Positions 45,789 to 51,562 of a DNA stretch of 64,000 bases are shown piece by piece. A model generated the notes under the pieces. The model saw only the letters and a list, made by a program, of their open reading frames with translations. It ran no database searches and was not told where the DNA came from. Origin of the DNA: Psychrilyobacter piezotolerans (GTDB lineage: Bacteria; Fusobacteriota; Fusobacteriia; Fusobacteriales; Fusobacteriaceae); contig NZ_QUAJ01000014.1 in NCBI RefSeq assembly GCF_003391055.1, forward strand, positions 1 to 64,000, in the 5' to 3' direction. The translations under genes and the position numbers were made by a program. The first letter of the stretch is position 1, and every line of letters begins with the position of its first letter.

Positions 45789-46979
45789 TTATTGTCTCCA
45801 AGATTGACTAAGTCTTGTTATTTCTCTTGCTGGTTCAAGGTTATAATCAACAGTATCAATAATTGAGCTTAAATGTGTCTTCCCTATAGCCCCTTCTAAT
45901 ATACTTATGAATTTTTCATCTTCTAAACCAAAAGAATCTATAAGTTCTGTTTGGATATTCTCAACCCACTGGAAAAATAGTTTTGCCTTTTCTGGATCAC
46001 TATTCCATTGATCAGCTAAATTATCTTCAGGATTTACAGGGTTTATAATACTCCAGTTACCTCCAGATTTTTTAATAACTATTCTTTCTTTATATCTTTG
46101 ATCAAAACTAGATTCATCTAATATTTGTCTCTCTGAATATATTTTAAATTCTTTTACAATAAATTCTAATAAGTCATTTACCTCTAAATTAAAAGGAGCT
46201 GTCTTTGCAATCTCTGCACATATAGTTGTAATAATAGCAGATATTGTTTTTTTATTTGATTTTTTTATTTTATGAAAATAAATATCTCTATGTCTTTTGA
46301 AAATTTGAATAACTTTTTGAAGAGGCGTTTTTAAAAGTAAATCTGGAATTTCTTCAACTGTATTATATACGCCTTTATACGATTCCATAAATGCCTGACG
46401 TTGATTATCTCTATTCCAATCTAAAAATGGTTTATTTATATAATTGAACCACTCAATATAACCTTTAGGGTTAGATCTAATCCAAGTATAAATCGTTCCT
46501 GAATTTTTATTAGTTATAGCAATACTTTGTTTTGTTACATCATAACTAAAAATTAATTCCTCGTCTTCAGCAGCAGGAATAATATCAATATTAAACCCTA
46601 CTCCATTAATATCTGCATAATTAAGAGTCCAACATTTATCCCATTCAATCAACATATCACTATAAATTTTATGTCCTTTTAAAAGATCACCTATAAGGTT
46701 TTTAATCTCCTTAGGATCTGTTGAATTTTTATTTTTTTTAATAAGACAAATAAAGTCTAGATCATAAGCCGTATCTTTTCCTTCTTTATAGGGTTTTACA
46801 ACTGTTCCTAATGCAAATGATCCCTGGGGATAAATATCGCAATCAATTCCATTTTGTTTAAAAAATTCAGCTAATGCTTTATATTTTTCAATCGCATTTT
46901 TATACATTGTAGGTGTTATATCTAATCCTGTTATTAGTTTATTAAAATCTTTTCTTCTCTTTATTTTATTTTGTATCAT
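45789..46979 (-). CDS. CD-NTase: cGAS/DncV-like nucleotidyltransferase
   Basis: A 396-residue nucleotidyltransferase. The catalytic GS is G53-S54 (PQGSFALGT), the metal-binding D-x-D is D73/D75 (AYDLDF) and the third aspartate is D132 (FNIDIIPA). A helical C-terminal domain follows. On phage infection such enzymes make cyclic di- or trinucleotides that switch on an effector, here presumably the S-4TM protein. The C-terminus is LSQSWRQ with no terminal glycine, so if the E2 conjugates it the chemistry or target differs from the glycine-ended DncV type. Product nucleotide unknown. Confidence 0.88.
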   Translation of the reverse strand: MIQNKIKRRKDFNKLITGLDITPTMYKNAIEKYKALAEFFKQNGIDCDIYPQGSFALGTVVKPYKEGKDTAYDLDFICLIKKNKNSTDPKEIKNLIGDLLKGHKIYSDMLIEWDKCWTLNYADINGVGFNIDIIPAAEDEELIFSYDVTKQSIAITNKNSGTIYTWIRSNPKGYIEWFNYINKPFLDWNRDNQRQAFMESYKGVYNTVEEIPDLLLKTPLQKVIQIFKRHRDIYFHKIKKSNKKTISAIITTICAEIAKTAPFNLEVNDLLEFIVKEFKIYSERQILDESSFDQRYKERIVIKKSGGNWSIINPVNPEDNLADQWNSDPEKAKLFFQWVENIQTELIDSFGLEDEKFISILEGAIGKTHLSSIIDTVDYNLEPAREITRLSQSWRQ

Positions 46980-48555: not shown

Positions 48556-48584
48556 TTTACATCTCAAAAAAACCATGTTATTAT
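48556..48584 (+). promoter_or_regulatory. Promoter of the metNIQ leader and operon
   Basis: TTTACA (48556-48561) and TATTAT (48579-48584) with 17-bp spacing and TGT as an extended -10. The transcript would start near 48591, about 26 bases before the leader-peptide ATG. Confidence 0.78.
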
Positions 48585-48616
48585 CTAAAAAAAATTATTA
48601 AGCGAGGAAGATTGTT

Positions 48617-48676
48617 ATGAAAAATCTTGAATTCAGACAATTAAATATGATGATGATGCTTTGGAAGGGTTTGTAA
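48617..48676 (+). CDS. Methionine-rich leader peptide (19 residues, MMMM run)
   Basis: ATG 48617 follows GAGGAAG by 6 bases. The peptide reads MKNLEFRQLN-MMMM-LWKGL, with four successive ATG codons at 48647-48658 and a TAA at 48674-48676. A run of codons for the amino acid that the downstream operon imports is the hallmark of ribosome-mediated attenuation. It is followed by two stem-loops and an intrinsic terminator before metN. The peptide itself probably has no function; stalling at the Met codons would be the sensor. Confidence 0.8.
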   Translation: MKNLEFRQLNMMMMLWKGL

Positions 48677-48788
48677 CTTAAATTATTTAATTTAAGGGCA
48701 GACTCATTTTGTATTAAATTACATGAGTCTGCCAAACATCTTTCAAGCAAGTACGAAAGCCTGTGGTAGACGCCGCAGGCTTTTTTTT
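48677..48788 (+). promoter_or_regulatory. Attenuator of metNIQ: leader stems and intrinsic terminator
   Basis: Directly after the leader stop come stem A (48677-48684 with 48689-48696), an 11-bp perfect stem B (GGCAGACTCAT 48697-48707 with 48723-48733) and terminator stem C (48757-48766 with 48773-48782, one G-U pair) followed by T6. The 3' arm of B, GTCTGCC (48727-48733), can alternatively pair with GGTAGAC (48765-48771) in the terminator, giving a candidate antiterminator. I see no SAM riboswitch or T-box in the leader. Confidence 0.75.
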
Positions 48789-48825
48789 ATATTATTTTTC
48801 CCTCTTTCCACCGGTTGATGAGTAC

Positions 48826-48858
48826 GGAAAAATTATATTTAGTAAATATAATTTTTCC
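48826..48858 (+). other. 15-bp perfect hairpin between attenuator and metN
   Basis: GGAAAAATTATATTT pairs perfectly with AAATATAATTTTTCC around AGT. No T-run follows. It ends 40 bp before the metN ribosome site and could stabilise the 5' end of the readthrough or processed message. Confidence 0.6.
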
Positions 48859-48904
48859 TATGTCAAAGGTGCCAAAGGCAGGGTAACAAAAAGGAGATAA
48901 AATT

Positions 48905-49918
48905 ATGATTCAGATCAAAAACATCAAAAAAACTTACACCAGTAATAATATCAGAGTAGATGCACTAAAAAATATAAACTTAGATATTGAAAAAGGAGAT
49001 TTCTACGGGATTATCGGCCTCAGCGGAGCCGGGAAATCAACCCTTATCAGGCTATTGAACAGATTAGAAGAGCCAACCAGCGGTGAGATCCTGGTGGAGC
49101 AGAAAGATATCTTGGGTTTTAATAATTCTGAGCTTCAAGAGTACAGAAAGAAAACAGGGATGATCTTTCAGCACTTTAACCTCATGAATTCCAGGAGCGT
49201 AGGAGGTAATATAGCCTTTGCACTGGAGGTAGCCAACTATCCCAAGGAAAAGATTAAACCCAGGATTATTGAGCTCCTAAAATTAGTGGAATTAGAAGAT
49301 AAGATCGACAGCTATCCGGCCCAGTTGTCCGGAGGACAAAAACAAAGGGTCGCCATCGCCAGAGCTCTGGCTAACCACCCGAAAGTTCTTCTTTCAGATG
49401 AAGCAACCAGTGCACTGGATCCAAAAACTACCAAGAATATCTTAAACTTATTAAAGGATATCCAGAAAAAATTAAACCTGACTATTATCCTCATCACCCA
49501 TCAGATGGAGGTTATCAGGGATTCATGCAATAAGGTGGCAGTCCTGGACGGCGGTAATGTGGCAGAAGTAGGAGAGGTCGTAAATATATTTTCAAACCCC
49601 CAGACTGTAATTACCCAGGAATTTATAAAACATCTGATCCCGGAGGAAGAAGCAGAGGTTGCATTCAGCCAGAAGAGTGGCAGAAAGATAGTAAAACTCT
49701 CCTATGTAGGAGTGGCTGTTGATAAACCTATTATCTCTCAATTAGTCAGAAAATTTGATGTGGATATAAGTATCCTGGCCGGGAGTATCGACAAGTTAGT
49801 AACCAGCAGTGTAGGCCACCTTATATTAGAGCTAAGCGGTGAGATGGAAAAACAATTGAAAAGTATAGAGTGGCTGAAACAAAATAAATTAGGAATCGAG
49901 GTGTTGTACAATGGATAA
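48905..49918 (+). CDS. metN: Methionine ABC importer ATPase MetN
   Basis: A 337-residue ABC ATPase. Walker A GLSGAGKST is near 38-46, signature LSGGQKQRV near 139 and Walker B LLSDEATSALD near 160. The C-terminal NIL domain (about 260-335) binds methionine and gives feedback inhibition in MetN proteins. AAGGAG precedes the ATG. It overlaps metI by 8 bp. It powers uptake of methionine captured by MetQ. Confidence 0.96.
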   Translation: MIQIKNIKKTYTSNNIRVDALKNINLDIEKGDFYGIIGLSGAGKSTLIRLLNRLEEPTSGEILVEQKDILGFNNSELQEYRKKTGMIFQHFNLMNSRSVGGNIAFALEVANYPKEKIKPRIIELLKLVELEDKIDSYPAQLSGGQKQRVAIARALANHPKVLLSDEATSALDPKTTKNILNLLKDIQKKLNLTIILITHQMEVIRDSCNKVAVLDGGNVAEVGEVVNIFSNPQTVITQEFIKHLIPEEEAEVAFSQKSGRKIVKLSYVGVAVDKPIISQLVRKFDVDISILAGSIDKLVTSSVGHLILELSGEMEKQLKSIEWLKQNKLGIEVLYNG

Positions 49919-50567
49919 AATTATAAGTCTGCTTTTACCGGCATTCAGCGAAACTATATACATGGTGTTATTTTCAGTGGTATTTTCCCTCCTCATAGGG
50001 ATCCCCGTGGGAATATTATTATATGTCACAAAACCTGATAATATCCTGCCTATGAATAAATTAAATAAAATTCTAGACCTTATTGTCAACGTAGGAAGAT
50101 CCTTTCCATTTATCATATTGATGATCTTGGTTTTACCCATATCGCGATTTATCGTAGGAACAACCATTGGATCTACAGCCAGCATTGTACCCCTGTCTAT
50201 CTCAGCAGCTCCCTTTGTTGCCAGGATCATCGAGGGAGCTGTAAACGAAGTGGACAGGGGAATCATAGAAGCATCTGTCTCATTGGGAGCTTCTAAATTT
50301 GAAATTATTACCAAAGTATTGATACCGGAAGCACTCCCCGGTCTTATTCACGGTATCACCCTGACTATAATAAATTTAATCGGTTATTCTGCCATGGCAG
50401 GAGCTATCGGAGGAGGTGGTTTAGGAGATGTGGCAATCAGATACGGGTACCAGAGGTTCCAGGTGGATATCATGTTTATATCGGTCATCAGCATAATAAT
50501 ACTGGTTCAAATAGTTCAATTTACAGGAAATAGTATAGTAAATAATATTAATGCCAAGAGGAAGTAG
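49911..50567 (+). CDS. metI: Methionine ABC importer permease MetI
   Basis: A 218-residue inner-membrane permease with five hydrophobic segments and the ATPase-contacting segment EASVSLGASKFEIITKVLIPEALPG in the usual place (split here as EASVSLGASK and VLIPEALPG). GGGGLGDVAIRYGYQRF near the C-terminus is diagnostic of MetI. It overlaps metN by 8 bp. Confidence 0.96.
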   Translation: MDKIISLLLPAFSETIYMVLFSVVFSLLIGIPVGILLYVTKPDNILPMNKLNKILDLIVNVGRSFPFIILMILVLPISRFIVGTTIGSTASIVPLSISAAPFVARIIEGAVNEVDRGIIEASVSLGASKFEIITKVLIPEALPGLIHGITLTIINLIGYSAMAGAIGGGGLGDVAIRYGYQRFQVDIMFISVISIIILVQIVQFTGNSIVNNINAKRK

Positions 50568-50770: not shown

Positions 50771-51562
50771 ATGAAAAAAATTATATTATTATTGTCACTT
50801 ATTGCTATATTTGTCGGATGCGGAAAGAAAGAGGCCGCAGAAAACAACGTGCTGAGAATCGGAGCATCACCATCTCCCCACGCTGAAATTTTAAACCTTA
50901 TAAAGGATGACCTGGCTAAGGAGGGAATCCAGCTGGAAATTGTTGAGTTTACAGATTATGTTACCCCTAATCTGGCCCTGAATGACGGAGAGATCGATGC
51001 TAACTTTTTCCAGCATCTGCCGTATTTAGAAGCTTTCTCAAAGGACAGGGAATTGGACCTCAGTTCTGTTGGAGGAGTATTCGTATCCCCACTGAGTCTT
51101 TTTTCAGATAGAATAAAAGATTTAAAAAATCTGCAGGATGGTGCTGTCATTGCCATCCCCAACGATCCTTCCAATGGCGGAAGAGCTCTGATCATATTGG
51201 AAAAAACCGGGCTTATCAAATTAGATCCCAAGGCTGGATTGAAAGCTACGGTGCTGGATATCACAGAAAATCCTAAAAAATTAAATTTTAAAGAGATCGA
51301 TGCAGCTCAGCTCCCTAGATCCTTACAGGATGTAGATTGTGCATTTATCAATGGAAACTATGCTTTAGATGCCGGCATTGATCCCGTAAAAGATGCTATA
51401 TTGAGAGAGGGAAAAGACTCACCTTATGCCAACATTGTAGCAGTTAAAACAGAAAATAAAGATAATAAAAAAGTAGAAGCTCTCATGAAAGCACTCCACA
51501 GCGAAAAAGTGAAAAATTTTATCATCGATAAATACAAGGGTATTATAGCACCAACATTTTAA
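50771..51562 (+). CDS. metQ: Methionine-binding lipoprotein MetQ
   Basis: A 263-residue NlpA/MetQ-family lipoprotein. Lipobox FVGC gives an acylated C17. ASPSPHAEIL, EFTDYVTPN, ANFFQHLPYL and PNDPSNGGRAL are family segments around the ligand. It delivers L- (and perhaps D-) methionine to MetNI. The ribosome site AAGGAGG is 8 bases upstream. Confidence 0.96.
   Translation: MKKIILLLSLIAIFVGCGKKEAAENNVLRIGASPSPHAEILNLIKDDLAKEGIQLEIVEFTDYVTPNLALNDGEIDANFFQHLPYLEAFSKDRELDLSSVGGVFVSPLSLFSDRIKDLKNLQDGAVIAIPNDPSNGGRALIILEKTGLIKLDPKAGLKATVLDITENPKKLNFKEIDAAQLPRSLQDVDCAFINGNYALDAGIDPVKDAILREGKDSPYANIVAVKTENKDNKKVEALMKALHSEKVKNFIIDKYKGIIAPTF

Follow-up and report, generated by a model that had tools for sequence, protein, structure and literature searches.

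Leader-peptide attenuators are usually seen as unrelated inventions, made operon by operon. The classical ones (trp, his, leu, thr, phe and ilv; RF00506 and RF01859) consist of a short ORF led by a Shine-Dalgarno sequence, a run of regulatory codons, mutually exclusive hairpins and an intrinsic terminator before the operon, and the leader described here, upstream of metNIQ in the window (the whole 64-kb stretch of DNA that was analysed), is like them in each of these respects. It differs in giving no match to the Rfam leaders at the gathering threshold and in using one RNA scaffold that is common to several specificities. Its switch would also differ from that of the classical trp, leu and thr scheme: the stalled ribosome would not mask the protector helix (2:3, below), but would spare an extra 5' segment (segment 1) that dismantles it.

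T-boxes share other properties with this leader (a single RNA scaffold serving many amino acids, specificity altered by codon exchange, sensing of tRNA charging, and a terminator/antiterminator output), but they bind the tRNA at a specifier loop, whereas the present leader would be read by a translating ribosome through the codon run of an ORF. SAM-I riboswitches (RF00162) stand at the equivalent position upstream of metN in those other genera of Fusobacteriaceae that were examined; unlike the present leader they sense SAM through an aptamer, for which there is no match in the window. For methionine, a leader ORF before metNIQ has been proposed in Streptomyces lividans (metL), where the peptide MSTTSDRTPATEATTTPGARCMCRRMCAF has scattered Met residues, the mRNA is leaderless and no intrinsic terminator of a typical kind was found by the authors (PMC8079986). 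The likeness lies in the predicted methionine leader ORF before metNIQ, and we saw no sequence relation between metL and the present leader. Besides this proposal we found no other published methionine leader, nor, in the open-licence literature, a description of attenuators of this type in Fusobacteriota, although priority is not certain. A 2010 survey of attenuation by Lopatovskaya and colleagues, cited in PMC4833913, could include some of these leaders.

We take the metNIQ leader to be a ribosome-read attenuator of transcription that regulates metNIQ in response to charged tRNA-Met, and to be one member of a homologous family in Fusobacteriota whose members differ in their sensor codons; from sequence comparison, we put the probability of this reading at roughly five in six. 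The comparison brings out a translated-looking ORF, codon runs that fit known gene function, three helices that are alternatives to one another, a terminator, constant spacing, and homology between leaders of different specificity. What we infer is that scarcity of charged tRNA stalls the ribosome, that the genes are expressed under starvation, and in what order the RNA folds. The locus would offer a well-supported methionine case of leader-peptide attenuation, and would fill a gap in what is known of amino-acid regulation in Fusobacteriota.

The leader before metNIQ and other methionine genes

A promoter, a ribosome site, a 19-codon ORF with four ATG codons, two stem-loops and an intrinsic terminator had been described upstream of metN in an earlier, sequence-only reading of this DNA. 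All are present as placed, except that the terminator, given there as 48757-48788, has a stem at 48755-48784 followed by a T tract. The features are as follows (window coordinates).

48556-48584, + strand: promoter, TTTACA-17-TATTAT with extended -10 TG; kept in L007, L010, L011, L016 and L017
48604-48608, + strand: Shine-Dalgarno sequence GAGGA, 8 nt 5' of the ATG; a purine-rich site is present in 29 of 29 copies, all types
48617-48676, + strand: leader ORF of 19 codons, MKNLEFRQLNMMMMLWKGL and stop (ATG at 48617, TAA at 48674-48676)
48647-48658, + strand: putative sensor, four Met codons, ATGATGATGATG; 3-5 Met codons at the equivalent position in every Met-type copy
48667-48674, + strand: segment 1, GGGTTTGT, 8 nt past the end of the Met run; it overlaps the stop codon
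48677-48696, + strand: stem A (48677-48684/48689-48696), the hairpin separating segments 1 and 2
48698-48705, + strand: segment 2, GCAGACTC, partner of segment 1 or (as 48697-48706) of segment 3
48697-48706/48724-48733, + strand: stem B, formed by segments 2 and 3
48706-48711, + strand: ATTTTG, conserved, single-stranded, directly 3' of segment 2
48724-48734, + strand: segment 3, TGAGTCTGCC (48724-48733), which makes the 3' arm of stem B; other copies show changes here that compensate those in segments 2 and 4
48727-48734, + strand: 5' side of the antiterminator, within the segment 3 region
48740-48744, + strand: CTTTC, pairing with 48755-48759 as the antiterminator's inner helix (duplex prediction; metN/metG type)
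48755-48771, + strand: segment 4, the 5' arm and loop of the terminator; 48764-48771 (TGGTAGAC) pairs with 48727-48734
48755-48788, + strand: intrinsic terminator, 13-bp stem (48755-48784) and T tract; 0.2 expected by chance in the region
48905-49918, + strand: metN; best match TIGR02314, E 2.3e-114, under its curated cut-off
49911-50567, + strand: metI; NF008049, over cut-off
50771-51562, + strand: metQ; TIGR00363 (MetQ/NlpA family), over cut-off

The Met run ATGATGATGATG occurs once in the 64-kb window, counting both strands, against an expectation of 0.03 from dinucleotide shuffles. A DNA search covering the window's genome and 40 relatives recovered the leader, 76-97% conserved and upstream of differing methionine genes, from further genomes of the genus Psychrilyobacter, a degree of conservation and a placement that argue against chance. 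It precedes metNIQ (L001, L007-L011), metG (L016, L017), metY (the O-acetylhomoserine sulfhydrylase gene; L002, L018) and hom (homoserine dehydrogenase; L022, L023), and the window's genome has its second copy at the head of metY-metF-metA-metH (the names metF, metA and metH being assigned from sequence). Insertions and deletions among the aligned ORF homologues are of whole codons, in frame, and the start is kept; the peptide of the metY/hom type, MVNSRIGQLNMLMMMLW followed by a stop, has an in-frame Leu codon inside the Met run.

Searching with a covariance model built from the Psychrilyobacter copies (R1) revealed a second genus, g4, with homologous Met leaders: MFNKAMKTTMMNMMPLGVGTKN and close variants, each ending in a stop, lie upstream of metY, aspartate kinase and a peptide-binding (solute-binding) protein, and MTHNLISKTTMMNMMMPMGVGTKN, likewise closed by a stop, upstream of a second metN. 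A model built from g4 alone recovers the first genus, and the reciprocal matches have E values of 1e-4 to 1e-8. A scan of named genomes with a leader pattern did not return g4 and gave chance matches in unrelated bacteria. The proposal that metNIQ is under a Met leader-peptide attenuator is strongly supported by this comparison, in which homologous leaders stand before other met genes.

Several neighbours of these leaders are recorded here as observations in their own right. In two genomes (G006 and G007; L016 and L017) the gene downstream of the Met leader encodes a methionyl-tRNA synthetase (MetRS); six other genomes searched hold no close copy of this accessory metG, which suggests an acquired second MetRS. 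Divergent from the metY operon of the window's genome, a leucine leader ORF, MILTNILSINILLLLLLLLPLDCKQLN with its stop, and a terminator precede leuA (L002:2062-2450 in G000:C3, + strand of the locus); this leader seems to lie outside the shared scaffold. Between the terminator and metN, the window carries a dispersed repeat of about 65 bp (48805-48870) containing the inverted repeat GGAAAAATTATATTTAGTAAATATAATTTTTCC (48826-48858); the whole stretch is missing from the metN leaders of the other genomes; further copies of the repeat lie at G000:C36:9113-9176 and G000:C7:81882-81923 and in related genomes of the genus. Near metNIQ, on the - strand (45789-46979), there is a CD-NTase (SMODS/oligonucleotide cyclase) gene, possibly of a CBASS-type defence system.

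Exclusive helices and the position of the ribosome

The sequence-only reading had paired GTCTGCC (48727-48733) with GGTAGAC (48765-48771) of the terminator, and this pairing is confirmed; the metN leader of G005 has GTTTGCC and GGCAAAC in their place, a compensatory change in 3:4. Its doubt that a ribosome stalled on the Met codons could act on stem B directly was justified, but the ribosome would not need to reach stem B: segment 1 (48667-48674) can pair with its 5' arm. The switch it had suggested through stem A, whose 3' side was to pair with AATTAAAT just before the Met codons, is not conserved (the complement is missing in the metY and hom copies and in the metG copy of G007).

The mechanism that we propose would run as follows. 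With ample charged Met-tRNA, the ribosome would reach the stop codon and cover segment 1, so that stem B could form between segments 2 and 3 and the terminator would fold and end transcription. With scarce charged Met-tRNA, the ribosome would halt on the Met codons with its front edge at or just 5' of segment 1, leaving that segment free; segment 1, on which stem A would stack, would then capture segment 2, and the freed segment 3 would take the terminator's 5' side as its partner (3:4, the antiterminator), allowing metNIQ to be transcribed.

We evaluated the helices by permuting the pairing partners among 14 lineages. The lineages' own 1:2, 2:3 and 3:4 pairings were better than all 50,000 permutations (z scores of -4.4, -5.4 and -5.3), including the antiterminator 3:4, the exclusive alternative to the terminator (0 of 50,000 as good), and the control pairings 1:3, 2:4 and 1:4 were unremarkable in the same test. 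Counting pairs in 1:2 together with stem A gave 14 doubly changed cells, a result reached in 0 of 500 shuffles, and a slide of zero was best in percentage paired. One copy, Aro_g8, has a weak 2:3. A look at relatives had been proposed as a check on the sequence-only reading, and it bears the reading out: Met runs are conserved upstream of metN within the genus, and the helices covary. For almost all Met and Tyr copies, the earliest stable fold predicted during transcription joins segments 1 and 2 around stem A (for the g4 metN copies, where the fold window started within segment 1, this structure is visible in a separate geometry check).

The spacing of these elements is fixed within narrow limits. 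A gap of 5-8 nt separates the end of the last sensor codon from segment 1 in 28 of the 29 copies, the Trp copy having one of 12 nt, and the stop codon falls between -7 and +17 nt relative to the start of segment 1 (29 copies), a placement at which a terminating ribosome would cover segment 1. From the last Met codon it is about 40 nt in the 3' direction to segment 2 (48698-48705), with segment 1 and stem A intervening in all 29 copies. The arrangement thus departs from the classical three-helix scheme in that the protector, segment 2, lies outside the footprint of a ribosome at the sensor codons.

Masked partition functions were computed with the ribosome on the last-but-one sensor codon or on the stop codon. 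In these models, stalling as compared with arrival at the stop raised 1:2 in 29 of 29 copies, lowered 2:3 in 29 of 29 and raised 3:4 in 26 of 29 (His_g2 and Met_g4N being among those with no 3:4 rise), with values near zero for shuffled controls; because masking segment 1 abolishes 1:2 by construction, only the changes in the other two helices at the stop codon, with 2:3 rising and 3:4 falling, are informative. For the window copy, the expected numbers of pairs were 8.1 (1:2), 4.1 (2:3) and 10.8 (3:4) in the stalled state, and 0, 11.0 and 8.4, respectively, with the ribosome at the stop. With the ribosome on the very last Met codon of the window copy, 2:3 is predicted to be thermodynamically stronger than 1:2, and the response should therefore depend on stalling at earlier Met codons or on kinetic capture.

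A second pairing, P1, joins the end of the Met run (the Met-Leu-Trp codons) to the stretch just 3' of stem B, and would permit classical attenuation through P1 only, in which the stalled ribosome masks the P1 segment and frees the antiterminator, leaving 1:2 as a by-product. P1 does appear in the predicted free-leader RNA fold of several copies, and in g4 the sequence CCTTTGGGAG of the ORF competes with CTTGGGAG of the terminator for a single CTCCC. Its covariation is weaker than that of the other helices (1.8% of permutations are as good), it is missing from the Tyr type, and it was not required to account for the other specificities, almost all of which retain 1:2, 2:3 and 3:4. We accordingly rejected P1 as the main switch, on its weaker covariation and its absence from the Tyr type, and regard a purely P1-based mechanism as improbable next to one that runs through segment 1.

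One scaffold, several sensor codons

Leaders with runs of other codons were also among the R1 matches: a Tyr-run leader in g4 (MKQKIVFNTNSYYYYYLT and stop) before an AgcS-type carrier and, from a different family within the order, a leader with a His run upstream of hisZ and one containing Cys (NMCMCSRRV, then a stop) upstream of a sulfite/nitrite reductase. We built a further covariance model (R3) from the aligned common part, which starts after the last sensor codon, so that the sensor codons were excluded. In 98 Fusobacteriota genomes this model found 74 sites at E<=0.03, of which 71 lie behind a short ORF with a codon run at its end, 29 of these representing a new specificity or lineage; the remaining three (L197, L202 and L215) have no such ORF, with about three expected by chance. 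These counts are not independent, because copies within one genus are closely related. The R3 matches just named, like three of the R1 matches (L162 in G097; L046 and L058 in G062), are probably chance, as they lack a leader ORF or are the terminators of other genes.

The out-of-sample leaders comprise Pro leaders before putP (QPIPPR, NPMVP and SPIMP, each ending at a stop codon), an Asn leader before asnA (NNNNNN), mixed aromatic leaders before DAHP synthase (NWYFYYYFRN and WYWY, each with a stop), a Trp leader before an SNF-type transporter (HWW), a His leader before an amino-acid binding protein (HHHHHH), a Cys leader before an SDF symporter (CCC) and a Tyr leader in a third genus. Wherever the role of the gene is known, the run agrees with it: Pro with putP, Asn with asnA, His with hisZ, Cys with sulfite reductase, aromatic residues with DAHP synthase, and Met with met genes. 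The Tyr and Trp leaders, together with one of the His and one of the Cys leaders, stand before transporters with no assigned substrate, for which the codon run could serve as a predictor. The substrates so predicted (L043, L187, L183, L216 and L204) are Tyr for the AgcS-type carrier, Trp for the SNF-type transporter, Cys for the SDF symporter and His for the SBP_bac_3 protein. Changes inside the Tyr run are synonymous (TAT/TAC), and the flanking residue varies among S, A and T.

These comparisons suggest a homologous family across Fusobacteriota in which specificity would have changed through exchange of the codon run on a conserved RNA scaffold. It is quite probable, in our judgement, that the leaders form a phylum-wide homologous attenuator class with repeated exchange of the run (Met, Pro, Asn, His, Cys, Tyr, Trp and mixed aromatic), a ribosome-read counterpart of the T-box whose logic is one segment longer than the classical one, and which replaced SAM-I at metN. 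If one homologous scaffold does carry some eight kinds of codon run, this would show that attenuators, like T-boxes, can evolve through replacement of the sensing codons.

Arrest of the ribosome by the leader peptide itself, responding to free methionine or SAM much as TnaC responds to tryptophan, would fit the LW that follows the Met run and is conserved within Psychrilyobacter. Beyond the codon run, however, no peptide motif is common to the genera or the specificities, and stalling with excess ligand would switch uptake and biosynthesis genes off, opposite to the predicted fold of the stalled state; we give this idea almost no credence as compared with the reading of codons by the ribosome. 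A side observation on the scaffold is that ATTTTG (48706-48711 and its homologues) is near-invariant over genera and specificities, yet has little pairing in the model.

A probable exchange with SAM-I riboswitches at metN

The sequence-only reading had noted that methionine genes usually use SAM riboswitches, Met T-boxes or MetJ; no Rfam family (SAM, T-box or leaders) matches the present leader over threshold, RF00230 (T-box) included, and a permissive scan returned matches at chance level. The SAM models, as a positive control, found matches in the sister genera. The only RF00230 match in the window's genome is below cut-off and lies elsewhere, before a gene resembling an aminoacyl-tRNA synthetase. 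Should the leader nevertheless sense a metabolite or a tRNA, as a variant SAM riboswitch, a relative of the T-box or an aptamer of a new kind, the Met codons would be incidental; the long nucleotide-level conservation within the genus, loop ATTTTG included, and the SAM-I riboswitches at the equivalent place in other genera fit such a sensor. It is nonetheless very unlikely, given that no credible Rfam match, to SAM families or the T-box, appears even at a permissive threshold, that the scaffold carries eight kinds of codon run tracking the downstream gene, and that codon insertions are in frame and changes in the Tyr run synonymous. A likeness of TTGGTACC to the T-box bulge sequence was dropped, because it is missing in most copies.

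The attenuator would occupy, in Psychrilyobacter, the place at metN that is held by SAM-I in the other genera examined. Upstream of orthologous metN genes in those Fusobacteriaceae there is a SAM-I riboswitch; most genomes of the family have 1-5 such elements, and the window's genome has one, before the S component of an ECF-type transporter. Relatives lacking both the Met run and the terminator upstream of metN had been named as evidence that would count against a Met attenuator. The outcome is mixed: among the Psychrilyobacter metN copies found there is none, and other genera have SAM-I instead, which is a swap of sensors and no refutation of the attenuator. A SAM-sensing riboswitch and a sensor of tRNA charging would thus have changed places at one gene.

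In a tree of MetN, the leader-controlled genes fall in two places: the Psychrilyobacter clade lies among SAM-I-controlled orthologues, and the g4 paralogue lies beside a SAM-I-controlled paralogue. The tree is unrooted, and a direction from SAM-I to leader is suggested by the wide spread of SAM-I. In one further genome (G059), within a stretch in which no SAM-I was found, the region upstream of metN has a match to RAGATH-18 RNA (RF03064; L124:2548-2609).
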